Shown here: positions 402 through 16,130 of the stretch, one piece after another
Layout: the number at the start of each line of letters is the position of its first letter
Position numbering within the stretch: the stretch's first letter is position 1
Assembly: GCA_003660555.1 (NCBI GenBank)
Contig: QMUK01000019.1
Span: 1 to 16,427 of the forward strand
Length of the DNA stretch: 16,427 nt
Origin: Thermococci archaeon
GTDB lineage: Archaea > Hadarchaeota > B88-G9
Direction of reading: 5' to 3'
Made by a program: the position numbers and the translations under genes
Notes under the pieces: model-generated
What the model saw: only the letters and a program-made list of their open reading frames with translations
What the model was told of the DNA's origin: nothing
Database searches by the model: none

Positions 402-731
402 TTATATTAGGGATTCTATTTTTTGTACTGCCTCTTTAGCCTTTTTTATTGTGAATGCCAAAGAAAACTCGGATTCTAGGAATACTACCAGAGATATCCT
501 TTTTCCCAAAACTACTATAGAACTCATTTTTTCTCCGTCAAATATCCCGAATTCTAGGTCTCCTAATTCTGTCTCCTTTAGTCCTATGTTGTTCAGATAC
601 CCGACCAACGTTTGCGCCACGTCCTCCCCGCTTTCCCCTCTTTTGAACAATACGAAACCCTCCTGGGATACAACGTAGATCTCTCTCACTCCTTCTATCC
701 ATGATAGCTCTTCTAGAGGCTTCTCTATCAT
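402..731 (-). CDS. Roadblock/LC7-like protein (second of a tandem pair)
   Basis: This small single-domain protein of 109 residues is predicted cytoplasmic, with no signal or membrane segment. The pattern fits a Roadblock/LC7 alpha-beta fold: an N-terminal helix (IEKPLEELSWIEGV), a strand pair 'REIYVVSQEGFVLFKRG', a long middle helix (GEDVAQTLVGYLNNIGL), three further strands including SSIVVLGKRISLVVFLE, and a C-terminal helix (IKKAKEAVQKIESL). Roadblock proteins in prokaryotes commonly pair with small Ras-like GTPases as regulators; no GTPase of that type is visible here. The ATG lies one base after the stop of the preceding Roadblock-like gene, with a GGAGGGG site inside that gene's 3' end, so the two are very probably translationally coupled. 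The two are weakly similar in sequence but share length and order, so they may form a heterodimer. Assignment rests on fold pattern only. Confidence 0.6.
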   Translation of the reverse strand: MIEKPLEELSWIEGVREIYVVSQEGFVLFKRGESGEDVAQTLVGYLNNIGLKETELGDLEFGIFDGEKMSSIVVLGKRISLVVFLESEFSLAFTIKKAKEAVQKIESLI

Positions 732-732
732 G

Positions 733-1065
733 CTAGCCCCTCCCTATCCTCGAGAGTTGTAGTCTCACCCATCCTAGATTGGAGTTTTTCCCTCCTACAG
801 AGATGAGTATCTTTTCGTTCTCCATAACGGAGAACAAGTACCCTTTGCTAAATCCAATACTGATGCTCCTAATTCTTCCGAAATCTTTTAGGGTCTCAAA
901 CCCCTTCTCCCTAAAAACCGCTCTTATTAGTTCTAGCAAATCTCTCTTTTTAGTTAGAATTCCCTTTGGCTCCTCGATTTCAACTTCTCCTTTGTTAAGG
1001 TCAAGTATCGCTGAGCCAATTATTCCTTCGCTCCTATTTAGGTCAAGCATGACTCTCTCTATCAT
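733..1065 (-). CDS. Roadblock/LC7-like protein (first of a tandem pair)
   Basis: This protein has 110 residues. The segment 'GIIGSAILDLNKGEVEIEEP' resembles the Roadblock/LC7 first hairpin (usually 'G-v-x-g-a-x-v-x-d-x-x-G'), followed by a helix (KKRDLLELIRAVFREKG), two strands around 'RIRSISIGFSKGYLFSVM', a final strand 'EKILISVGG' and the C-terminal helix 'NLGWVRLQLSRI', also typical of the fold. The ATG is preceded by GGGGAGG five bases away. It starts 31 bases after the HD-domain gene and ends one base before the next Roadblock-like gene. It probably acts as a cytoplasmic adaptor or a GTPase regulator, by analogy with the family; the partner is unknown. The assignment is by pattern, and a Longin-type fold is the main alternative. 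Confidence 0.55.
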   Translation of the reverse strand: MIERVMLDLNRSEGIIGSAILDLNKGEVEIEEPKGILTKKRDLLELIRAVFREKGFETLKDFGRIRSISIGFSKGYLFSVMENEKILISVGGKNSNLGWVRLQLSRIGRG

Positions 1066-2136: not shown

Positions 2137-4074
2137 TCACTTGAGCCTTATGGTCTCGAGGTTTTGGGGACACCTAGTTTCTAGTCTCATTCCCTTGTAA
2201 ACACTACTAGCTATGTCTAGGCATTTGCTGTTCTCCCCATGGCAGAATATGACCCTTTCCGGCCTAGGGTGTATCTTTCCTATGTACCCCATGAGCTGTC
2301 TCCTGTCACTGTGTCCGCTAAATCCGTCTATAGTCTTAACTTCCATTTTTACCTCTACGTATTCCCCTTTGCCCTCTCTTTGTCCTATTTGGACTACATC
2401 TTTTCCCTTCTGAACCTCTCTTCCTAGAGATCCTTCAGCCTGATAAGCTACGAAGACTATGGTGTTTCTCTCATCTATTGCCAGTTCCCTGAAGTACTCT
2501 ATGACTGGGCCACCAGTCATCATTCCTGAAGTAGAAAGTATGACGAACGGTCCCTTTTCCTCTATTACTTCGTGTCTCCTCTCCTCATCTTCTACTTTTT
2601 CGAATATCTCAGAAAGAAAAGGATTCATTCCCTCTTGAAATATGAGATCCCTTATTTCCTTTCTCATGTAATTGGGATAAGCTGTGTGTATAGCTGTAGC
2701 CTCCCATATCATTCCGTCCAAGAAGACTGTTACGTCCTCTAAGAGTTTGCTTCTAGCATATTCTTCTAGGACTACCATTACTTCCTGAGCCCTACCGACT
2801 CCCATTACTGGTACGAGGACCTTTCCTCCCCTTTTCAGTGTGTTTATCACAGTTCTAACGAGTTCTTTCTCTGCTTCCTTTCTAGGAGGCTGTATGTCCT
2901 CACTTCCTCCATAGGTACTCTCTGATATTAGTGTTTCAACCCTAGGAAATTGATATTTGGCAGATTCTAGTAGCCTAGTCCCTCCAAATTTAAAATCTCC
3001 TGTGTAGACCACATTGTAGAGCCCTTCTCCTACATGTAGATGTACTATGGCTGAACCCAGAATGTGCCCAGCGTTGTGCAAAGTAAGTCTCACTTCTGGT
3101 GTGATATCTGTAGTCTCTCCATATTCCAAGGGTATGCAATGTTTTATGAATTCCTTTACCTCTTTCTTTGTGTATGGTGGGTTTCCCTCTCCCCTGTCCG
3201 ACTTATCGATTATCTCAAGGTAGTCCATGACCAAGAGGGTCACTAGGTCTCTAGTCGGTGGTGTACAATACACTGGGCCGTCGTATCCGTACTTATACAG
3301 ATAGGGAACGAATCCACTGTGATCTAAGTGAGCGTGAGTTATCACTACTGCGTCTAGCATGTCGAATCTGCTTACCTCAGGTGCATTCAAGTATGGATAA
3401 GCTTTCTCTGGATCGTTGTGGGCTACGTTTATTCCACAGTCTAGCAATATCCTACTCTCTGGCCCTCTCCTGCTTCCCGTTTGAAAGAGTATTGCAGACC
3501 TACCAACTTCTCTGAAGCCTCCTAGGCCTGTGATTCTTATCCAGGAGGTCTTGTCTAACGGTTCTCTGTGTATTAGCTTCCCTATTCTCCTTAAAATTGC
3601 TCTTCTCTCCTTGCTTTCAGTTTGAAGCATATTTCTTATTCTCTTTATTGTTTTAGATTCTATCGGTGGAGTTCTTATTGGCTCTGGTGTCCACCTAACT
3701 TTGCTGGTTATTTCTCTCACTAATTCTCCTTTTTTTCCTATAACTAAGCCGGGCTTTCTTGCCTCTATTATGACCTTTCCCATAACTGGATCGAAATTTA
3801 TGGATGTTATATCAGCCTCTTGTGGGACTATCTCTAATATCTTTTTCTTAGCTTCTTCCATATCCATTAGAACGTCTGGGTCTGGTCTAACTTCCACTCT
3901 TTTTCTTATTTCTTTGGCCAAATTTCTTATCAGATCACCATCTTCTAGGAGAATAGCTGGATTCCTCGTATAGATTATTATCTTTGGACCTTCCGCCCAT
4001 ATCCCAGAAATTAACTCAGGATATTTTATTTTCTCGATTATCGCTTTCCTAATGTCTTTAGGGACATTTGTCAT
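2137..4074 (-). CDS. aCPSF1: KH-domain beta-CASP ribonuclease / transcription termination factor
   Basis: This is the archaeal homologue of the eukaryotic 3'-end endonuclease CPSF73. Family members cut RNA, often in U-rich tracts after genes, and bring about transcription termination. The 645 residues match family length. Residues 1-140 form the N-terminal KH region, with the KH loop 'VIGKKGE' at 111-117. The metallo-beta-lactamase core follows: 'THAHLDH' at 246-252, the later ligand H337 in 'GHILG', and 'TGD' at 358-360. The beta-CASP part holds 'STSGMMTGG' and 'FSGHSDRRQL', the last supplying a late catalytic His. The ATG lies one base after the psmB stop, so the two genes form a bicistronic unit; the same adjacency is known in Methanocaldococcus (MJ1237-MJ1236) and Pyrococcus. 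No separate promoter is seen. Nothing essential is missing. Confidence 0.95.
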   Translation of the reverse strand: MTNVPKDIRKAIIEKIKYPELISGIWAEGPKIIIYTRNPAILLEDGDLIRNLAKEIRKRVEVRPDPDVLMDMEEAKKKILEIVPQEADITSINFDPVMGKVIIEARKPGLVIGKKGELVREITSKVRWTPEPIRTPPIESKTIKRIRNMLQTESKERRAILRRIGKLIHREPLDKTSWIRITGLGGFREVGRSAILFQTGSRRGPESRILLDCGINVAHNDPEKAYPYLNAPEVSRFDMLDAVVITHAHLDHSGFVPYLYKYGYDGPVYCTPPTRDLVTLLVMDYLEIIDKSDRGEGNPPYTKKEVKEFIKHCIPLEYGETTDITPEVRLTLHNAGHILGSAIVHLHVGEGLYNVVYTGDFKFGGTRLLESAKYQFPRVETLISESTYGGSEDIQPPRKEAEKELVRTVINTLKRGGKVLVPVMGVGRAQEVMVVLEEYARSKLLEDVTVFLDGMIWEATAIHTAYPNYMRKEIRDLIFQEGMNPFLSEIFEKVEDEERRHEVIEEKGPFVILSTSGMMTGGPVIEYFRELAIDERNTIVFVAYQAEGSLGREVQKGKDVVQIGQREGKGEYVEVKMEVKTIDGFSGHSDRRQLMGYIGKIHPRPERVIFCHGENSKCLDIASSVYKGMRLETRCPQNLETIRLK

Positions 4075-4075
4075 G

Positions 4076-4711
4076 CTATCCCCTTATTTTATTGAGAATC
4101 TCCTCTACTTCTCTAGGGGAATATTCCCTAAAGCCCTTCTCGAAGTCTACAGAGGCCAGAGATATTCCATTTCCTGAGGCTGTGTCTCTTTGCATTGCTG
4201 CCCAAACTGCTTTTACAGCCACTTCTACTCCTTTGTCTATGTCTATGTCCTCTGAATACTCGCTTTCTAATACACCTAAAGCATATGGTGAGCCTGATCC
4301 TGTTGCTATTAGTTTGTCCTCGGTTATTCCTCCGAATATGTCCAATGAGAACATCCTAGGACTGTCATCGACTCCTCCTACGACTAAGTTCGTTACGAGT
4401 GGGAATAACCTCCAAGAGTGTAGTACCGTGGAGGCCAAGTTCACCATGCTCTTCACTGGTATTGGCCTTCCTACTCTCACTTTGTAAAGTTTGGCATGTA
4501 TTCCCATGAGATTGGTCATTGACTGGGCATCTCCCACTACTCCAGCTATGGTCACTCCTATGTGGTCGTCTACTTTGTATATTTTTCTGGCTTCCTTCGA
4601 GGCCACCATGTATCCCACGGTAGCTCTCTTGTCAGTTGCTAGAACTACTCCGTCCTTACACACCAAGCCCACAGTAGTCGTGCCCTTAAAAGTCATCTCC
4701 GATAACTCCAT
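4076..4711 (-). CDS. psmB: 20S proteasome beta subunit (catalytic)
   Basis: This is the proteolytic subunit of the archaeal 20S proteasome, an N-terminal threonine hydrolase that assembles with PsmA. The 10-residue propeptide ends in Gly10, and self-cleavage at 'KG|TTTVG' would expose Thr11 as the nucleophile. In mature numbering the expected partners are present: D17 (D27 here), K33 (K43, in 'EARKIY'), S129 (S139, in 'GSGSP'), D166 (D176) and S169 (S179) in 'RDTASG'. The 211 residues are normal for the family. The ATG has GGAGGTG five bases upstream and a strong TATA box about 46 bases upstream. It leads the psmB-aCPSF1 pair. The alpha subunit gene is not in the window; the PAN ATPase that feeds this protease lies about 9 kb away on the other strand. 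Confidence 0.97.
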   Translation of the reverse strand: MELSEMTFKGTTTVGLVCKDGVVLATDKRATVGYMVASKEARKIYKVDDHIGVTIAGVVGDAQSMTNLMGIHAKLYKVRVGRPIPVKSMVNLASTVLHSWRLFPLVTNLVVGGVDDSPRMFSLDIFGGITEDKLIATGSGSPYALGVLESEYSEDIDIDKGVEVAVKAVWAAMQRDTASGNGISLASVDFEKGFREYSPREVEEILNKIRG

Positions 4712-4838: not shown

Positions 4839-7602
<2,764 letters not shown>

Positions 7603-7615
7603 AGCATCACCGTTA

Positions 7616-7924
7616 TTAGTCAGCTACTCTAGCTTCCTCGTATACTACCTCATCAGGGAAGCCCTCTAGACCCAGGGTGTGACCCAAGTGTTCTTCTAAT
7701 TCGTCAGGCAATAGTATTGCCCTTTTGCAAGTTAAACAGTACACCCATCCTCTATCTGAGATTGTTCTCTTAACTTCTCCCTCTGATCTCTCTTCAAAAT
7801 ACTCACATTCTACATCTTCATCGTCGGCAGCTAGAATTATTAACTTTCCTTTCTTTGTGCAGAGGACAAAATATTCATAGATCCAATGGGGTGCTGAGTG
7901 TAGGCACTCTATGCATCTGGGCAT
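7616..7924 (-). CDS. Small Cys-rich, probably zinc-binding protein upstream of the oxidoreductase
   Basis: I do not recognise the family. From the ATG the protein has 102 residues and two candidate metal sites. The first is four cysteines, C4-x2-C7, C22 and C40. The second is C63-x2-C66 followed by H79-x2-H82 ('YCLTCKRAILL...HLGH'), a C2H2-finger-like spacing. The C-terminus is acidic. A GTG nine bases further upstream is in frame, but AGGTG, which contains that GTG, sits six bases before the ATG and makes a good ribosome-binding site, so I prefer the ATG at 7924. It is first in an operon with the two oxidoreductase subunits, 13 bases ahead of alpha. It could be a regulator, an assembly factor or an unrelated passenger. 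The four-Cys site could in principle bind iron-sulfur instead of zinc. Confidence 0.75.
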   Translation of the reverse strand: MPRCIECLHSAPHWIYEYFVLCTKKGKLIILAADDEDVECEYFEERSEGEVKRTISDRGWVYCLTCKRAILLPDELEEHLGHTLGLEGFPDEVVYEEARVAD

Positions 7925-7955
7925 GTCTTGCACCTTTCTTAGATTTCTCAGAGAC

Positions 7956-8145: not shown

Positions 8146-8931
8146 ATGAAGTTCCAGAGATTGGTGTTGTTGGGAATAGTGATCCTAGCTTTAATAACAA
8201 CATTCTATTTGTATCTTGGAGAGGAGGAGGTCAGTGCAGATAAAATAAGAGAACTAGCCTTAATAGCCAGTGAAAAACAAGATTACTATAAATTCAACGG
8301 GGTCTTGACCATTGAATCGGGGGTGATGTCAGCTAGAATGGAACAAAAGGGCACAGTAGACTGTGTAGATAAAAGGATACTAATCGAAATGAAAGGAGAG
8401 ATGAAAATAATGGACAAGGAGGTCTCTATGGATGGGGAAGAATATCTAATTGGAGACACCCTTTACATGAAGATCAATTTCAATGGGAAAGAAGGGGAGT
8501 GGTACAAGATGGAATTTCCAAGTATTGGAGATGCTTGGTCAATGAATCAGGGAGAACTCTTTTTAGAAATGCTAGAAGATGCGGAAGTATTCAGACTGAA
8601 GGACGAAGTAGTTAAAGGTGAGGATTGCTTTGTGTTAAGAGTGAAATTCAGTCCAGAGAGTATAGATAAGATGTATAAGATGTATAGCAACCTTATGGGA
8701 ATGAAAATGGACGTAGACTTAGACAAGGCAGAATTGGAGGGTAAATATTGGATTTCAAAAGAATCCATGCTGATCGTCAAAGCTGAAAGTACCTCTAGGC
8801 TTTACCTCAAAAAGGGAGGGATCAAAATTCCAATCGAGGTAAAAGGCACATACTATTTCTACGACTACGGAGTCCCTGTGAGAATACAACTTCCTCCGGA
8901 GGCAGAAAATGCTACTCCAACTGAGAGGTGA
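8146..8931 (+). CDS. Membrane-anchored exported protein, LolA/LppX-like beta fold suspected
   Basis: The 261-residue protein starts with a single hydrophobic segment at about 6-24 (LVLLGIVILALITTFYLYL) behind a KxxR start. There is no lipobox cysteine and no clear cleavage site, so it is probably held by this helix with the rest outside the cell. The remainder is mainly alternating strands with recurring motifs such as 'KFNGVLTIES', 'MEQKGTVDCVDKRILIEMKG', 'EEYLIGDTLYMKI', 'EGEWYKMEF' and 'EGKYWISKESMLIVKAE'. This resembles the repeated-hairpin half-barrels of LolA/LppX and similar archaeal exported proteins, but I cannot name a family. Two cysteines (C72-ish in 'TVDCV' and one in 'GEDCFVL') could form a disulfide. 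A Met-rich stretch (MYKMYSNLMGMKMDVD) stands out. It is monocistronic and converges on the helicase with 12 bases between stops. Confidence 0.75.
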   Translation: MKFQRLVLLGIVILALITTFYLYLGEEEVSADKIRELALIASEKQDYYKFNGVLTIESGVMSARMEQKGTVDCVDKRILIEMKGEMKIMDKEVSMDGEEYLIGDTLYMKINFNGKEGEWYKMEFPSIGDAWSMNQGELFLEMLEDAEVFRLKDEVVKGEDCFVLRVKFSPESIDKMYKMYSNLMGMKMDVDLDKAELEGKYWISKESMLIVKAESTSRLYLKKGGIKIPIEVKGTYYFYDYGVPVRIQLPPEAENATPTER

Positions 8932-8943
8932 TTCCGTAGCTAA

Positions 8944-11421
8944 TTATCCCCATGGATCCTCTATTCTTTTTCTGATCTCCCTAGTTATTTTTGAGTACTT
9001 AATTTCTCCTAGGGCTTCCGATATTCTCTCTATCCCGTGAAGTAAGTGGAGTATCTCCTCTAACCAATTAAAAACATCTCCTGAGTACAGAAGAAGTCCA
9101 TCTTCCTCGAATTCCTTAGATATTTGGCTTGGATCTAGTTTGTCATCTATCCTCTTCCTAACTATTTCCATAGATAGTTTGAGCTCGCCACATCCACAAA
9201 ATGGAGAGTCCTTGCAATTACACGAGAGATACTTTTGAACTAACCTAGATATCTTCCTTAGAGTTCCCTTGTTCACACCTCTTGGTCTAGACAAGAACTC
9301 CAAGGTTGTGCCAGAAAAGAGCCTCACTGAGACTTTGTCCTTTATCTCGGAATATATGTCTTCTCCGAGGTATGCATTAGTAAAGGGTTTCAGTTCAATG
9401 GCCATCTCTAATGGGTCACACTTATCGCATCTCCCCCTTCTGCTAGATAGGATTCTCCTTTTGATTTCTCTAGAGGTAACTGGATCTATGAAGCTCTCTG
9501 AAACTGCTTTTCCATATCTGGTAACTTTAATTTCCCCATTGGAATATCTCACAAGATCGTCCTCTAACAAAAAGGAGAGAATTTTCCCTAAAGTGGAGGG
9601 GAACTCTAGCTCTCTATGTATCTCGATTAAGTCTTCATAACTCTTCGTTATCCCACTAGAGAGAAATGCAAGTATTTCTTCTGATTCTTTCTTAAAATCG
9701 ACTGAAATAATTGGGTTCGGCTCTATTCTGTCTACTCCTGGGGATAGCAACTCTTCTAGTACTTCTTTCTCAGAAGATCCCATGAAGGATCCCTTTGGAT
9801 CCAATAGGATTACTACTCTTCCTCTGTCGTGATAACTAGGCCTTCCTGCTCTTCCAAGCATCTGATAGAACTCTGCCTTAGTCAACCACTTGTTTCCCAT
9901 TGTTAAACTCTCGAATATTACCTGAGATGCTGGGAAATCCACTCCAGAGCCAAGAGCTGCGGTAGTGACTATTGCTTTTGCCTTTCCCCTATTAAAAGCT
10001 AGTTCCATTGCTCTCCTCTTAGAATACGGCATTCCTGAATGATATGGGAGTGCCATTATCTTCTGGGATATTTCTTCTACTTTCCTCCTCGAGTTCGTGA
10101 AGACTATGGTTTTTCCTCTGTACCCCTTGGTGGAGATCTCTCTGCTCTCTCTTTCCACCAATTTAGATATCAGTCCTATTTTCCTCTTCCCAGAAACTGG
10201 GATAACATGTATCTCTATTGGGACTGGGCGCTCTTCATCTAGAACTAAAGTAGCTCCCAATTCCTCAGACAGTTCCTCTGGATTTCCAACAGTGGCTGAT
10301 AGAAATATGAATTGGGGGTCGTATTTCCTCTTTAGTCTCTCTATTAGTCCCCTAATTCTCCAACCTCTCTCCTCGTCCCCTAAGTTGTGAACCTCGTCTA
10401 TTGCTACAACGCCTATTGGTCCTATTTCCCTTCCCTTTCTTAACAGGTAGTCTATTCCTTCGTAAGTTCCTACTATTACATGGCAATCTATTGACGTGTC
10501 CCTTATCTCTACGTACTCCTTTGTCTTTAATCTGTCTACTCCCACCCTTATACCTACTTTCAGGAAGGGGTACTTGTCCTTGAATTCTTCGTACTTCTGA
10601 TTTGCTAAAGCTACCAAGGGTGTGAGATAAATGAATTTCTCTCCGTTCAGTGCTCTAGTTACCCCGGGAATTTCGGCTATCAAGGTTTTCCCGCTTCCAG
10701 TGGGACTCACTACCAGGAGGTTCCTACCTTCCAAGAGACCAGAATTCAGTGCTTTAGTTTGCATCTCGTTGAGCTCGTTTATTCCCCACCTAATTAGAGA
10801 TTCTTTGATTTTATTTGGGATTTTGAGAGATGATACTTCTATTCTATCTAATTTTTTTGGCTTCTTCTCTTGAATTGTCCTAAAAACTGTTATCTCATTT
10901 GGTTCTGATATTTCCACTAGTTCTAGAAATGCTTTTCTTACTTCCTTGTTCTTCTTAATCGCTTTCTCTAAAATGAAATCTGGAAAGTCTCCGATTCTTT
11001 CTTTGAGTAGTCTCTTAAGTTCTTCTATAGCACATTTCATACACACAGGTTTTCCTTCGAAAAAATAGCTTGTCTCAGTCTTATATTCACCCTTCTGGAG
11101 ACAAGATGTACAGAATGTGACTTCCTCAAACTTTATTTGGAAATTTCTCAAAAAAGACTTCACTTCATCTGCGTCTGAAGAGGTCCTCTCATCTAAGGAT
11201 ATCAAGACCTTTTTAGATTCTTTTAACGCTTTTATGAGCTTCTTTGGTGATACTAGCTTCTCTCTCCCAGTAGGGTCTCTAAGAACACACTTTGATGGAT
11301 ATGGTCTCTCTCCCTTTGAGTCGAACGTCACTAATACTTCCTCTTGAGTGCTTCCAAGAGAAAATGTGAATTTATATTCTTTCTTTCTCTTTCTAGGAGT
11401 CCTACTCACCTTTACCTCCAT
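8944..11421 (-). CDS. Ski2-like DEAD/DEAH-box helicase with two Cys clusters (DUF5814-type)
   Basis: This is an ATP-dependent superfamily 2 helicase of 825 residues. Motif I is 'SPTGSGKT' at 239-246, motif II is DEVH at 342-345, motif III is 'SAT' at 375-377, and motif VI reads 'QMLGRAGRPSYHDRG', as in Ski2/Hel308 relatives. Ahead of the motor are about 190 residues with a four-Cys cluster (C104, C107, C127, C130: 'FCTSC...VCMKC'), likely one zinc. Near the C-terminus a second cluster, 'RCDKC' plus 'SCNCKDSPFCGCGE', could bind another metal. An archaeal helicase group annotated DUF5814 has a similar build; that name is from memory. The substrate, RNA or DNA, is undetermined. The ATG overlaps the hflX end by 10 bases, making it last in the MBF1-DUF2209-hflX-helicase operon. 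Confidence 0.85.
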   Translation of the reverse strand: MEVKVSRTPRKRKKEYKFTFSLGSTQEEVLVTFDSKGERPYPSKCVLRDPTGREKLVSPKKLIKALKESKKVLISLDERTSSDADEVKSFLRNFQIKFEEVTFCTSCLQKGEYKTETSYFFEGKPVCMKCAIEELKRLLKERIGDFPDFILEKAIKKNKEVRKAFLELVEISEPNEITVFRTIQEKKPKKLDRIEVSSLKIPNKIKESLIRWGINELNEMQTKALNSGLLEGRNLLVVSPTGSGKTLIAEIPGVTRALNGEKFIYLTPLVALANQKYEEFKDKYPFLKVGIRVGVDRLKTKEYVEIRDTSIDCHVIVGTYEGIDYLLRKGREIGPIGVVAIDEVHNLGDEERGWRIRGLIERLKRKYDPQFIFLSATVGNPEELSEELGATLVLDEERPVPIEIHVIPVSGKRKIGLISKLVERESREISTKGYRGKTIVFTNSRRKVEEISQKIMALPYHSGMPYSKRRAMELAFNRGKAKAIVTTAALGSGVDFPASQVIFESLTMGNKWLTKAEFYQMLGRAGRPSYHDRGRVVILLDPKGSFMGSSEKEVLEELLSPGVDRIEPNPIISVDFKKESEEILAFLSSGITKSYEDLIEIHRELEFPSTLGKILSFLLEDDLVRYSNGEIKVTRYGKAVSESFIDPVTSREIKRRILSSRRGRCDKCDPLEMAIELKPFTNAYLGEDIYSEIKDKVSVRLFSGTTLEFLSRPRGVNKGTLRKISRLVQKYLSCNCKDSPFCGCGELKLSMEIVRKRIDDKLDPSQISKEFEEDGLLLYSGDVFNWLEEILHLLHGIERISEALGEIKYSKITREIRKRIEDPWG
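8963..8973 (+). terminator. Possible U-tract terminator for the exported-protein gene
   Basis: ATTCTTTTTCT on the plus strand lies about 35 bases past the stop at 8931, antisense to the end of the helicase gene. Archaeal termination commonly uses U-tracts, cut by aCPSF1. Such tracts also occur by chance in coding DNA, so this is weak. Confidence 0.25.
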
Positions 11422-12659
11422 GTTTCCATCCCCAGAACTCCGGTTCCTTCCGGAGCCTCTTTGGTTGGATCTCTGTCCGATTCTAGGTCTACTAATACTT
11501 CCTCTGGAGTATAGTGTCTGTAAATTACTCTCGACTTTCTCTCTAATTCGTTCATAAACCTGTATCCATTCGGCACGTTTGGTACGGAAAGTATGAATCT
11601 CTTCAGTCTCGGCAAAGATGAAAACATCGCTCTTTTCAGTCCATCGAGGTTTCTACCAGTCTTGGCGGAGATTAGTACTGGATTGTGAAAATACCTAGAG
11701 AGTTTCTCGTATTTCTCTTCAATTTCCTCCTCCTCTAGGAGATCTATTTTGTTTAAAGCTGTAACTATGGGAGTTTTTAGTCCTATTCTCTCGAATATTT
11801 TGTGACAGGACTTAGCCTTCCTTTCTATCTCTCTAACTGGCTCTGAGAAGTCTACTACCCACACCACTAGGTCAGAAAGAGTTATTTCTTCTATTGTAGA
11901 AAAAAAGGCTTCTAGGACCAAACTAGGCATGTTTTCTATGAAGCCAACGGTGTCTGTGAGTAGGGCTTTTCTACCGAATAGGTCCACTCTTCTGGTGGTA
12001 GTTCTTATGGTCGTGAACATCTCTTCGCCGCATTCTACGCTCTCAGATGCGATGGAATTAAGAAGTGTGCTCTTTCCAGCATTGGTATATCCAGCCAACG
12101 ATATGAGATCAAATCCAGATCTTCTTCTCCTCCTTCTAACTGAGGTCCTCTTGTTCCTAATCGAATCTAATTTCTTTCGTGTTTCAATCATTCTTTTCCT
12201 TATTTCCCTGTAGTACTTCTCCACCTCATATCTTCCTAAGCCTCTGAATCCTGGTCTCTCCTCCATTTTAGCTAATTTTACTTTCTCTTTAGCTCTCGGG
12301 AGTTCATATCTTAATTTAGCTAGCTCTACTTGTAGTTTACTCTCTTTAGTCCCAGATCTCTTGGAGAAAACTTCCAATATAAGTTGGGTTCTATCCATTA
12401 CCTCTGTGCCGATCTCTCCTGCCAAATTGTAAGCTTGAGATGGGGAGAGCTCCCCAGAGAAGATTACTACCTCTGCCTTAGTTTCTTTGACTAATCTGGA
12501 TAATTCTTTTACTTTTCCAACACCTATTTTGTATTTAGGATCTTCCCCCTCTTTCCTCTGTAGTAGTCTCCCGACTACATCCATTCCAGCACTTCTAGCT
12601 AGTTCTTCGAGTTCTGAGAGCTCACTATACTTTCCTCTGCAAACTACCAGAGCCCTCAT
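11412..12659 (-). CDS. hflX: HflX, ribosome-associated GTPase
   Basis: HflX is a translational GTPase of the OBG/HflX group. Bacterial homologues bind 50S subunits and split stalled 70S ribosomes, and archaeal ones bind the large subunit. The 415 residues begin with the HflX N-terminal domain ('ALVVCRGKYSELSELEELARSAG', 'GVGKVKEL', 'VIFSGELSPSQAYNL'), followed by a coiled coil at about 105-175 and a basic run (RRRRRR at 175-180). The G domain has G1 'GYTNAGKST' at 190-198, G2 threonines at about 216-221, G3 'DTVGF' at 236-240 and G4 'NKID' at 303-306; G5 is probably 'ISAKTG'. A C-terminal domain of about 60 residues follows. The ATG lies 35 bases inside the upstream gene, preceded by GAGGGT, and the end overlaps the helicase gene. 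Confidence 0.93.
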   Translation of the reverse strand: MRALVVCRGKYSELSELEELARSAGMDVVGRLLQRKEGEDPKYKIGVGKVKELSRLVKETKAEVVIFSGELSPSQAYNLAGEIGTEVMDRTQLILEVFSKRSGTKESKLQVELAKLRYELPRAKEKVKLAKMEERPGFRGLGRYEVEKYYREIRKRMIETRKKLDSIRNKRTSVRRRRRRSGFDLISLAGYTNAGKSTLLNSIASESVECGEEMFTTIRTTTRRVDLFGRKALLTDTVGFIENMPSLVLEAFFSTIEEITLSDLVVWVVDFSEPVREIERKAKSCHKIFERIGLKTPIVTALNKIDLLEEEEIEEKYEKLSRYFHNPVLISAKTGRNLDGLKRAMFSSLPRLKRFILSVPNVPNGYRFMNELERKSRVIYRHYTPEEVLVDLESDRDPTKEAPEGTGVLGMETWR

Positions 12660-13038
12660 GGAATACCCTCATTAACAGATCTCTACTTGCCTTGGAGACG
12701 TGGTGGGCAATCCTTACTAACTCTATCTCTCCCAATGTCTCACAGAACTTGAATTCTCTTCCTCCCAGTATTCCCTTCACTATCCACTCCTCTTTTCCCT
12801 TGAATTCTCCCCTCTCGGATGTTATGTAGTCGAACTCAATTGGTAAGTTTCTGAGTATTACCCTTGCCAGATCGGAATGTGTCAATGGTGTTTCAGTGAT
12901 TTCTAGGTCCAATTTCACATCCAGCACTCTCTCTACCCTCGTAGGAGATATTTCCGCCTCCACAAAAGCGAAGACTAGGTAATACTTACCGTTCACTGAA
13001 TGTTTTCCTGAGATATCAAAGCCCACTACCCTAGCCAA
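12625..13038 (-). CDS. Uncharacterised archaeal protein, DUF2209-like
   Basis: This is a 137-residue protein of unknown function. Its start, 'RVVGFDISGKHSVNGKYYLVFAFVEAE', looks like a strand ending in an acidic residue (D8) followed by a hairpin, a pattern met in RNase H-like and actin-like folds. I associate it with the archaeal family DUF2209, from memory. The rest is mixed: 'LTHSDLARVILRNLP', 'GREFKFCETLGEIE' and a C-terminal helix 'ELVRIAHHVSKASRDLLMRVF'. The start is TTG, four bases past the MBF1 stop, with GGGAGTGAG just upstream. Its last 35 bases overlap hflX. Placement between MBF1 and HflX suggests a translation-linked role; this is context only. Confidence 0.65.
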   Translation of the reverse strand: MARVVGFDISGKHSVNGKYYLVFAFVEAEISPTRVERVLDVKLDLEITETPLTHSDLARVILRNLPIEFDYITSERGEFKGKEEWIVKGILGGREFKFCETLGEIELVRIAHHVSKASRDLLMRVFHEGSGSLQRKV

Positions 13039-13042
13039 GGGC

Positions 13043-13528
13043 TCACTCCCTCTTCTTCACCTCGGCAACGTCTCCCAAGGTTAGTTCTAACTCTTCTTCC
13101 TCTAGCTCGAACTCCTCCTCGCCAATCCTCTCTATTAATCTTATTCCTAGTTCCCTTTCTAATTTCTTAGCTAGCTTTATACTGGGAGTAAGCCTGCCAG
13201 CCTCTATTCTGTGTATTACAGACTCCTTCTCCATTACCTTTTTGGCTAGTTCCTCTTGGGTAATCCCGAGTCTTTCCCTCCCTCTTCTTATCCTCATATG
13301 GTAGTCTTCTACAATCTCGTAGTCTTCTAGTCTTTCTCTCCTCGGTCTTCTTCTTTTTATTTCCTCTCTTCTTACTCTGGGAGGTGTTATTATTCTCTTG
13401 GGTTCTTGGACCACTTCGTAAATTTCCTTACCGTATTTCGCGCAATCGCTACAGACCATGAGAGGAGTTCCGTCGAGCATTACCTTCTTGAGTTCCCTAA
13501 CCTCTCTACCGCAGACTTCACACTGCAA
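13043..13528 (-). CDS. Archaeal multiprotein bridging factor 1 (MBF1): zinc ribbon plus HTH
   Basis: The 161 residues show the archaeal MBF1 plan. An N-terminal zinc ribbon has C3-x2-C6 and C26-x2-C29. A basic linker (about 45-75, rich in RR pairs) leads to a Cro/C1-type helix-turn-helix at about 77-131: 'MRIRRGRERLGITQEELAKK', then 'EKESVIHRIEAGRLTPSIK', then 'AKKLERELGI'. The tail is strongly acidic (EEFELEEEELELTLGD). Eukaryotic MBF1/EDF1 binds the 40S subunit at collided ribosomes and limits frameshifting; archaeal MBF1 has been linked to the small subunit and translation. The start is TTG with GGGATGGG ahead. It heads the operon through to the helicase and is divergent from PAN. Confidence 0.92.
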   Translation of the reverse strand: MQCEVCGREVRELKKVMLDGTPLMVCSDCAKYGKEIYEVVQEPKRIITPPRVRREEIKRRRPRRERLEDYEIVEDYHMRIRRGRERLGITQEELAKKVMEKESVIHRIEAGRLTPSIKLAKKLERELGIRLIERIGEEEFELEEEELELTLGDVAEVKKRE

Positions 13529-13627
13529 GGCCCATCCCTTCTATTAAGGGATTTACGAACATTGCTGCGACTCTTGGGGTGCTAGGGTTTATATAACTAA
13601 TGACTGAATGGGGAAGGGGGTCAGGGA
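13529..13627. promoter_or_regulatory. Divergent promoter region, MBF1 operon / PAN (TATA 13588-13595)
   Basis: TTTATATAACT at 13588-13598 is the only strong TATA-like element. For PAN, a start of transcription about 27 bases on (near 13618) would leave a leader of roughly 10 bases that begins in the G-rich stretch before the TTG. On the opposite strand it reads TTATATAAA and could serve MBF1 with a leader of about 40 bases. A weaker minus-strand candidate, GTAAATCCCTTAA, lies nearer MBF1. Which direction owns the box cannot be settled by eye. Confidence 0.55.
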
Positions 13628-14872
13628 TTGGTCGAAAGCGAGAGCAGTGGTCTACCTCACACTGAAAGATTGGAAGACCTTTATCTCAAAGCCTTAAGAG
13701 AGAAGATAAGGAAGATCAAGGAATTGGAACAGAGGGTCAAGAAACTAGAGGAAGTTAATAGGAGTCTCGAAATGGAGAAAAAGCTTATGGAGAGACAGAG
13801 ACTCAAACTTGAGAGAGAAGTTAGGAGTTTGAGGAAAGAGATAGAGAAAATGAATGCTCCTCCTCTTATAACCGGGACATTAATTGAACTCCTCCCAGAT
13901 GGAAGAGCTGTGGTGAAGAGTACCACCGGTCCAAACTTCGTGGTTAGGATCTCCTCCAAGGTAAAGAGAGAGTCCCTTTCTCCTGGTTGCATGGTAGCAA
14001 TGAACCAGAGATCCTATGCCATAGTCGAAGTTCTTCCTTCGAGTAAGGATCCGGTAGTGATGAATATGGAAATCGAAGAGAGACCTGGAGTCACCTACAA
14101 TGACATAGGCGGTTTAAAGGAGCAAATAGAGGAGATAAGAGAGACTGTAGAATTGCCATTGTTGAGACCCGATCTATTTGAGAAAGTCGGGATAGAACCT
14201 CCTAAGGGAGTTCTACTTTATGGTCCTCCTGGCTGCGGAAAGACGCTCTTAGCTAAAGCTGTTGCCTCTCAAACGAAAGCTACTTTCATAAGGGTAATAG
14301 CCTCAGAATTCGTCAGGAAGTACATAGGAGAAGGGGCCAGATTAGTGAGAGAAGTTTTCCAACTCGCCAGAGAAAAGTCTCCATCAATAATATTCATAGA
14401 TGAAATCGATGCCATTGCCGCTAAGAGATTGGACGATTCCACCAGTGGAGACAGGGAAGTACACAGGACCCTGATGCAGCTCCTATCTGAAATGGATGGG
14501 TTCGATCCAAGGGGAGACGTCAGGATAATAGGAGCAACTAATAGACCAGACATACTAGACCCAGCAATACTGAGGCCTGGAAGGTTCGACAGATTAATAG
14601 AAATTCCTTTGCCCAGCGAAGAAGGGAGATACGAAATATTCAAGATACACACCAGAAGAATGAATCTCTCTGACGACGTGAGTCTAAGAGAACTAGCTAA
14701 GCTGACCGAAGGGGCAACTGGGGCTGACATAAGACAAATCTGCATAGAAGCTGGTATGTTTGCCATAAAAGAAGGTAGGGATTACGTATCAAATCGGGAT
14801 TTCCTCCTTGGAATAGAGAAAGTGTTAAAGAAGGAATTGGGTGCTAAAACCCAAGAGGGGATGTACTTCTAG
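13628..14872 (+). CDS. pan: Proteasome-activating nucleotidase (PAN), AAA+ unfoldase
   Basis: PAN is the hexameric ATPase that unfolds substrates and feeds the archaeal 20S proteasome. Residues about 10-75 form the N-terminal coiled coil (heptads around '[18 protein letters not shown]'). An OB domain follows (about 80-140, '[20 protein letters not shown]'). The AAA+ module has Walker A 'GPPGCGKT' at 199-206, Walker B 'IIFIDEID' at 254-261, pore loop '[10 protein letters not shown]' with F228, and Arg fingers in 'RPGRFDR' at 316-322. The protein ends Met-Tyr-Phe, a proper HbYX motif that docks into the 20S alpha ring and opens its gate. The 414 residues are slightly short of the usual 400-430 midrange but complete. 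The start is TTG: no ATG or GTG in frame follows the upstream stop, and a G-rich site precedes it. The aRF1 gene follows 67 bases later. Confidence 0.96.
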
Positions 14873-14939
14873 GGATGATGAAAGAGAGCTTTTTCTGATG
14901 AATGAGGAGTGATGGGCGAACTGACCAGGTGTTTGAGAA
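14873..14939 (+). promoter_or_regulatory. Leader between PAN and aRF1 with chained UGA mini-ORFs
   Basis: The spacer holds three overlapping short frames. ATG 14875 encodes MMKESFF and stops at UGA 14896-14898, and ATG 14898 encodes MNEE and stops at UGA 14910-14912. Then ATG 14912 encodes MGELTRCLRNDRLV and stops at TAG 14954-14956, inside aRF1. Both junctions are UGAUG. The third frame covers the aRF1 ribosome-binding site AGGTG (14927-14931). The same bases also resemble a C/D-box RNA (ATGATGA 14875-14881, CTGA 14895-14898, CTGA 14921-14924). No TATA box is seen, so aRF1 is probably co-transcribed with PAN. Confidence 0.4.
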
Positions 14940-16130
14940 ATGATAGACTTGTATAGATTCAAGAGGGAACTAGAGGACTTAGAGAAGAAGAGAGGCAGAG
15001 GAACTGAGCTCATTTCTGTATACATACCCCCTGGGAGACCGATAAGTGAAGTCATGAGCCACATGAGACAGGAACAGAGTAGTGCCTCTAACATAAAGTC
15101 GAAGTCCACTAGAAAGAACGTCATATCTGCTTTAGAAGTAATAATGCAGAGGCTGAAATTAATCAGGAAGGTTCCAGAGAATGGATTGGTAATATTCGCC
15201 GGAGTAGTACCGAAGAACGGTGGAGGGGAAAAGATGGAGACTCACTTAATAGTTCCTCCGGAACCAATCAACCTCTACTTGTATCACTGTGACTCCAAAT
15301 TCTACTTAGAGCCGCTAAAAGAGATGCTCAAAGAAAAGGAGGTATATGGGATAATTCTCCTCGACAGGAGAGAGGCCACTATAGCCTTATTGAAGGGGAA
15401 GAGGTTCGAGGTTCTCAAGAGATTGACCTCTGGAGTGCCGGGAAAGATAAAGGCCGGAGGACAGAGCTCTAGGAGATTTCAACGATTGATAGAACAAGCT
15501 GCATATGAATTCCTGGTAAGAATAGGGGAACACTCCTCTAGAATATTCATGGAGATTCCAGAAATAAAGGGAATAATAATAGGTGGTCCAGGTCCAACTA
15601 AGGAGAAGTTCTTCGAAGGAGATTTTCTACATCACGAGCTAAAGAAGAAAGTAGTAGCCGTGGTAGACACAGGATACACTGGGGAGGATGGGATAAGAGA
15701 ACTAATAGACAGAGCAACTGGGAAATTACAAGAACTCTCAATAGTAAAGCAAAGGAAGCTGTTTCAGAGGTTCCTGAAAGAAGTTGTCAAGGGAACTGGA
15801 TTGGCCACATATGGTGTGAGGGAGGTAATGGATGCACTCGAGAAGGGTTTGGTAGACACTCTGCTAATATCTGAGGGATTAGAGATCAAGTTCATTAGAG
15901 GGAAGTGTGACTCTTGCAACGAGAAAATAGAGGGGATTTTCATGGAGAGTCCAAAGTGCAAGTGTGGTGGTAACTTAAACATAGAGGAAGAGAGAGATCT
16001 AGTAGAGGAAATGATAGAGAAGGCAGAGGCCACTGGAGCTGAAATAGAGGTACTCCCAGAGGACACAGAGGAGGGGGCCCAATTGAAGAACTTCGGTGGA
16101 GTGGCTGCCATACTCAGGTTTGCAGGGTGA
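14940..16130 (+). CDS. prf1: Peptide chain release factor aRF1
   Basis: aRF1 reads all three stop codons and triggers release of the finished peptide. The stop-codon reader is in the N-domain: 'NIKS' at 51-54 and the YxCxxxF motif Y115-C117-F121 ('YHCDSKF'). The catalytic 'GGQ' is at 173-175 ('KAGGQSSRRFQ'). The C-domain carries the four-Cys zinc minidomain ('KCDSC' and 'KCKC') and ends 'GAQLKNFGGVAAILRF'. The 396 residues are a little shorter than the commonest length of about 410, from a trimmed N-terminus. The ATG has AGGTG eight bases upstream and gives the usual first helix. It lies 67 bases after PAN and four bases before argS, with the argS ribosome-binding site overlapping its stop. 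Confidence 0.96.
   Translation: MIDLYRFKRELEDLEKKRGRGTELISVYIPPGRPISEVMSHMRQEQSSASNIKSKSTRKNVISALEVIMQRLKLIRKVPENGLVIFAGVVPKNGGGEKMETHLIVPPEPINLYLYHCDSKFYLEPLKEMLKEKEVYGIILLDRREATIALLKGKRFEVLKRLTSGVPGKIKAGGQSSRRFQRLIEQAAYEFLVRIGEHSSRIFMEIPEIKGIIIGGPGPTKEKFFEGDFLHHELKKKVVAVVDTGYTGEDGIRELIDRATGKLQELSIVKQRKLFQRFLKEVVKGTGLATYGVREVMDALEKGLVDTLLISEGLEIKFIRGKCDSCNEKIEGIFMESPKCKCGGNLNIEEERDLVEEMIEKAEATGAEIEVLPEDTEEGAQLKNFGGVAAILRFAG

Follow-up and report, generated by a model that had tools for sequence, protein, structure and literature searches.

We describe a two-gene unit in the genome of a Hadarchaeota archaeon, located on the 16,427-nucleotide contig QMUK01000019.1 (assembly GCA_003660555.1; the whole contig is referred to below as the window). 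It consists of a gene of the family DUF2209 and the gene hflX, which encodes the ribosome-associated GTPase HflX. The DUF2209 protein is very probably a functional partner of HflX, and the reading that we narrowly favour is that the two genes are the functional core of the locus, with DUF2209 as a nuclease of the RNase H type that acts jointly with HflX on RNA bound to ribosomes. The original prediction had joined six neighbouring genes, those of a Ski2-like helicase, HflX, DUF2209, aMBF1, PAN and aRF1, into one ribosome-rescue module. The six identities, the coordinates, the strands and the tight packing given there are confirmed, with curated models above their cut-offs and the motifs in place; the module itself appears to be mostly a local coincidence built on a real DUF2209-HflX pair.

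The linkage of the two genes recurs widely among archaea. In 74 of 80 named loci hflX lies directly downstream of DUF2209 on the same strand, often overlapping it, and these loci include linked pairs in Methanosarcinaceae, Methanotrichaceae, Methanocella and haloarchaea (Haloparvum, Haladaptatus, Halorubrum and a Halococcaceae metagenome-assembled genome). Short or overlapping spacing is likewise found in most relatives, and displaced cases are few (e.g. L040 and G410). Within a sample of 342 genomes, DUF2209 adjoins hflX in 77 of the 78 genomes for which HflX coordinates were listed, spread over eight families, and the pair is also present in five genomes of a one-genus phylum taken to be Methanopyrus-like. 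DUF2209 was found in 91 of the 342 genomes and HflX in 172, including all 91; a second sample of 246 genomes yielded DUF2209 in 21, each with HflX, and no genome of either sample carried DUF2209 without HflX. The gene upstream of DUF2209 varies by lineage, being a tRNA-intron endonuclease gene in 21 loci of the Methanosarcinaceae type (among them L006, L060, L082 and L084-L086), a PHP-domain gene in 39 loci and the aMBF1 gene in the window. As far as we found, the DUF2209-hflX pair is undescribed; the name DUF2209 did not appear in the literature searched, from which supplements and most subscription papers were out of reach, and PF09974 is absent from the main text of a survey of the RNase H superfamily (PMC3985635). 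A search for hidden, divergent DUF2209 genes upstream of hflX in phylum-mates and other archaeal families, with profiles at the most sensitive setting and E values as high as 1 allowed, returned none, and the open reading frames in that position, read in translation, were other genes.

The window protein matches DUF2209 with 89.2 bits against a cut-off of 26.8, and this is its sole Pfam match. An AlphaFold2 model built on a 44-sequence alignment (mean predicted local distance difference test score 92.8, predicted template modelling score 0.85) shows the element order E-E-E-H-E-(H)-E-H, which is that of the RNase H-like superfamily: three antiparallel strands, helix, strand, helix, strand, helix. 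Aligned with VIA-align, the model finds an archaeal RNase HII as its top match (Z 10.2, root mean square deviation 4.6, 128 residues), followed by EndoV (Z 9.3), integrases of retroviruses (about 8.4) and Argonaute (8.0), all of them enzymes that act on nucleic acids and share the RNase H fold. Judged by this model, DUF2209 almost certainly has an RNase H fold. Alignment of hidden Markov models with hhalign places the DISGRH motif of DUF2209 on the catalytic DEAGRG of RNase HII, weakly (E 0.03). Membership in the RNase HII family was considered and rejected, as no profile of that family matches and the motif is DISGRH or DISGRK and not DEAGRG; what is common is the fold. The source genome encodes a separate RNase HII of its own.

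The residues expected of an active site are strongly conserved. E75, G77, D/E78 and H112 are invariant in 84 DUF2209 sequences and the position of E104 is acidic in 83. Retrieval of the 80 named loci relied on the pattern [IV][ILV][AG][VI]D[IV]SGRH, which contains the residues from D8 to H13, so that their invariance in those loci arises by construction; conservation was therefore re-checked on 13 sequences found by profile, and in the resulting set of 14 sequences D8, S10, G11, H13, E75, G77, D/E78 and H112 are all kept. In the model strand 1 carries D8, strand 4 has E75 and D/E78 at its end, and the last helix carries E104 and H112; these positions, taken from the secondary structure of the model, reproduce the acid and histidine pattern of RNase H-like enzymes. 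This placement suggests that DUF2209 is most likely a metal-dependent nuclease, and that it is an active one seems probable. Stops inside the haloarchaeal DUF2209 matches were read collectively, and not case by case, as natural ends, since comparable proteins, when translated, end cleanly near the same place.

HflX of the window passes the model TIGR03156 (GTP_HflX; 317.7 bits against 216.75), has the N-terminal domain and the GTPase domain with motifs G1, G3 and G4, and in phmmer searches matches solved structures of HflX on the ribosome, the GTPBP6 structure 7of2 being among those matched. A C-terminal domain of 56-74 residues was present in 26 of 26 checked HflX proteins from genomes with DUF2209, while in those from genomes without DUF2209 the C-terminal extension is usually short and exceeds 35 residues in just 5 of 33. 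In an HflX tree all lineages with DUF2209, including that of the window, group together with moderate support (83/92), the phylum-mates excepted. Phylogeny confounds both results, which are thus consistent with co-evolution without being proof of it. The bacterial relatives attach to the large subunit. Bacterial HflX binds and splits ribosomes (PMC4770234), stalled ones among them.

The mechanism that we infer from the computed identities, fold, conserved acids and linkage extends to catalysis, an RNA substrate, contact with HflX, timing and any role in collisions. Since the DUF2209 gene overlaps hflX, the two proteins are probably co-translated. HflX with GTP would bind a stalled or immature ribosome and then remodel or split it, and would bring in DUF2209, perhaps through the HflX C-terminal domain; DUF2209 would then cut exposed RNA, which could be mRNA or a segment of pre-rRNA or rRNA, and this cleavage would clear or mature the subunit or the message. 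The chances that DUF2209 acts on ribosome-bound RNA are about even. As to whether that RNA would be mRNA or pre-rRNA, the endonuclease gene next to DUF2209 in Methanosarcinaceae points to RNA processing and the aMBF1 gene to translation. aMBF1 may belong to the same ribosome-associated group, because it shares the operon in the window and lies about 3.5 kb upstream of the pair in the Methanopyrus-like phylum. In its widest and clearly tentative form, the proposal is that archaeal HflX is one half of a two-component system: once the GTPase has opened or split the ribosome, a nuclease dedicated to this task, DUF2209, cuts the RNA laid bare. Such a coupling of a nuclease to ribosome rescue or repair would have no known counterpart in bacteria or eukaryotes.

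Several observations weigh against a nuclease partnership of this kind. In the larger sample roughly half of the genomes with HflX have no DUF2209, from which it follows that HflX can work without it, and Methanocaldococcus carries both genes unlinked. The conservation of neighbours is phylogenetically non-independent, the samples being mostly Methanosarcinia. Proteins of RNase H fold may lack catalytic activity or have DNA as their substrate; with Foldseek alone the model had no match below E 0.001 (best 2.7e-3), and data on the activity, structure or interactions of DUF2209 were not found. In Methanocaldococcus (L013-L022 and L081) the DUF2209 gene lies between genes for aIF2-beta and a membrane protein on one side and a methanogenesis marker 7-like gene on the other, by names read from the sequence.

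Four other explanations were weighed. Among them the best placed, unlikely as it is, has the pair serve the maturation of the large subunit or the repair of 50S, and not stall rescue, with DUF2209 as a YqgF-like rRNA-trimming RNase and HflX as a late-assembly GTPase. The tRNA-intron endonuclease, whose gene directly precedes DUF2209 in the 21 Methanosarcinaceae-type loci, also cuts bulge-helix-bulge sites in archaeal pre-rRNA, and GTPBP6, an HflX relative found here among the matched structures, has a role in assembly of the mitoribosomal large subunit. The aIF2-beta gene two genes upstream of DUF2209 in Methanocaldococcus, read from translations, fits as well. The window tells against such a role, since DUF2209 stands there beside aMBF1 and PAN and no rRNA-processing genes adjoin it; so does the dependence of the upstream gene on lineage, with the PHP-domain gene in more loci than the endonuclease.

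A further possibility, which we hold to be slightly less likely, is that DUF2209 is a catalytically inactive adaptor of RNase H fold, one that either anchors HflX on rRNA or regulates the GTPase of HflX. The protein is small and has a single domain, its gene overlaps hflX, and the additional C-terminal domain of HflX in DUF2209 genomes could be the docking site. The invariant acids at the catalytic positions of the superfamily and the invariant histidine of the last helix suggest chemistry, however, and not binding alone.

It is also improbable that the cluster consists of housekeeping genes that share promoters without being directly linked in function. The compact genome would suit such an arrangement, as would the unconserved positions of the helicase and aRF1 genes, but DUF2209 and hflX stay adjacent across many families in which every other neighbour differs, and this counts against a mere sharing of promoters, as does the occurrence of HflX in every sampled genome with DUF2209.

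The remaining genes of the proposed module behave differently from the pair. The helicase belongs to superfamily 2 and is Ski2-like, with an N-terminal CxxC...CxxC, the motifs DEVH, SAT and QMLGRAGR, and a C-terminal DUF5814 domain (95.6 bits); residues 193-821 match the 'DEAD/DEAH box RNA helicase' 7ujb (E 9e-138), better than Hel308. DUF5814 helicases are encoded in 72 of the 246 sampled genomes. Of 43 genomes with both the helicase and the hflX gene, 28 carry them on one contig, and in none of these 28 is the helicase within 10 kb of hflX, the closest being 177 kb away. aRF1 passes TIGR03676 (551.7 bits) and has the NIKS and GGQ motifs. Its identity as a Pelota-type rescue factor was rejected, as the pelota model scores 77.1 bits, below its cut-off, and the protein is a termination factor. 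It was not found next to PAN in the other loci fetched and is probably an unrelated neighbour. As their positions do not recur elsewhere in the samples, the helicase and aRF1 are regarded as local additions.

aMBF1 passes TIGR00270 (157.1 bits against 110), the CxxC motifs of its zinc ribbon lying at residues 3 and 26, and PAN passes TIGR01242 with 618 bits, has a Walker A motif and ends in M-Y-F. Divergent PAN genes beside hflX or mbf1-hflX are found in other archaea; the mbf1-hflX order with divergent pan recurs in six fetched loci of other families (L152, L156, L159, L162, L165 and L167) and is partly broken in phylum-mates. This neighbourhood has been published and read as a general information-processing context, and general transcription genes are among the neighbours of pan and mbf1 elsewhere (PMC3062615, citing de Koning 2009 and Wu 2010). 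Direct adjacency of DUF2209 and mbf1 was seen in the window only. Of the phylum-mates, all 12 in the 246-genome sample have HflX and a clear aMBF1 was seen in just 2 of 27; aMBF1 seems to have mostly disappeared from this phylum or to have diverged strongly there. According to Blombach 2014, as cited in PMC6301793, aMBF1 binds 30S and 70S, and for yeast Mbf1 an action on stalled ribosomes is described (PMC6301793).

Comparison of these neighbourhoods across archaea, as the original prediction had proposed, thus upholds the recurrence of DUF2209-hflX and of mbf1-hflX/pan but not the position of the helicase. The complete MBF1-DUF2209-HflX-helicase order was found in no other genome compared, nor was the full six-gene set, and aRF1 stood beside PAN in the window only among the loci examined. 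Under the refuting condition that the original prediction set for itself, the four-gene module therefore falls, and the idea of all six genes as a unit conserved in diverse archaea has been abandoned. That the unknown DUF2209 protein belongs with HflX is, in contrast, borne out by its RNase H fold and by the tight linkage in many archaeal families. A stall or collision module in which aMBF1 senses, HflX splits, the helicase extracts mRNA, DUF2209 cuts, aRF1 releases and PAN degrades is therefore very unlikely, for although all its components are side by side in the window, aMBF1 and its yeast counterpart act at ribosomes and the mbf1-hflX-pan link is widespread, the helicase is at least 177 kb from hflX in all 28 one-contig genomes, no other fetched region has aRF1 beside PAN, DUF2209 and mbf1 are not neighbours elsewhere and the published context includes general transcription.

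The features of the locus are listed in Table 1. The aMBF1, DUF2209, HflX and helicase genes form one minus-strand operon, in which the helicase and HflX genes overlap by 10 nt and the DUF2209 and aMBF1 genes are 4 nt apart; PAN and aRF1 are divergent from it. In the spacer between the two, a TATA-like, near-palindromic TTATATAAA at 13588-13596 was noted by eye, and this element could serve as a promoter for both the aMBF1 operon and PAN. The source assembly is an archaeal genome of 1.3 Mb, 91% complete and in 150 contigs, and the 27 phylum-mates compared with it belong to other families.

Table 1. Features of the DUF2209-hflX locus, in positions of the window.
Feature	Position	Strand	Model or basis
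Ski2-like helicase	8944..11421	-	PF00270, PF00271, PF19131
hflX, ribosome-associated GTPase, 415 aa, 67-residue C-terminal domain	11412..12659	-	TIGR03156
DUF2209 gene, 137 aa, TTG start, predicted RNase H-fold protein	12625..13038	-	PF09974
aMBF1, 161 aa, TTG start, zinc ribbon and helix-turn-helix	13043..13528	-	TIGR00270
PAN, proteasome-activating nucleotidase, divergent	13628..14872	+	TIGR01242
aRF1, class-1 release factor	14940..16130	+	TIGR03676
Overlap of DUF2209 3' end and hflX 5' end, 35 nt	12625..12659	-	coordinates and sequence
Divergent promoter region between aMBF1 and PAN, 99 bp	13529..13627	no strand	read from sequence

Elsewhere in the window, a gene for an FttA/aCPSF1-type beta-CASP RNase with a KH domain, a termination factor (2137-4711, minus strand), lies 1 bp from a proteasome beta subunit gene and makes another adjacency of an RNA factor and the proteasome. 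A SepF-like gene (PF04472) of archaeal cell division is found at 1544-2128 on the plus strand, its listed start probably being too far upstream, and the fused alpha/gamma and the beta subunits of a 2-oxoacid:ferredoxin oxidoreductase are encoded on the minus strand at 5746-7602 and 4839-5756. Four open reading frames of 105-261 aa have no Pfam match, with coordinates that include 7616-7933 (minus), 8146-8931 (plus) and 402-1065 (minus); the one of 261 aa resembles a secreted lipoprotein-type protein.

The function of HflX in archaea is poorly known, and a conserved partner of RNase H fold offers a direct handle on it. A Pfam family whose function is unknown gains a predicted fold and active site, and the six-gene account, attractive but lacking support, gives way to a two-gene hypothesis that can be tested. 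The DUF2209-hflX pair is present in the genetic model Methanosarcina, which makes the question of a dedicated nuclease on split or immature ribosomes approachable.

Set beside known systems, the DUF2209-HflX pair and its surroundings each have a close relative and a distinguishing trait. HflX of the window resembles the ribosome-splitting GTPases of bacteria and S. solfataricus and human GTPBP6 in its TIGR03156 match, GTPase motifs and structure matches; it differs in being coupled to DUF2209 and in keeping a C-terminal domain that is mostly missing in archaeal HflX without DUF2209. With the mbf1-hflX-pan neighbourhood the window shares aMBF1, HflX and PAN side by side, PAN being divergent, whereas the DUF2209 gene between mbf1 and hflX and the additional DUF5814 helicase and aRF1 genes set it apart. 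ASH-Ski2 is an archaeal RNA helicase with a Ski2-like core and an N-terminal zinc finger that acts with aRNase J. Compared by description, the helicase of the window is like ASH-Ski2 and the DUF5814 archaeal Ski2-like RNA helicases in its core, its N-terminal zinc-finger-like cysteines and DUF5814, and unlike ASH-Ski2 and Hel308 in its operon position with hflX, found in the window only. DUF2209 itself shares with RNase HII and EndoV the fold, acids on strand 1 and where strand 4 ends and, in DISGRH, a likeness to DEAGRG; it differs in being shorter (about 130 aa), in its weak sequence similarity, in having I/V for the second acid of the RNase HII DE pair and in the linkage of its gene to hflX. 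Should DUF2209 cut mRNA at stalled ribosomes, it would be analogous to the collision nucleases SmrB of bacteria and Cue2 of yeast (Cue2 in PMC9841427) and would reach the same end with an RNase H fold where theirs is an SMR domain.

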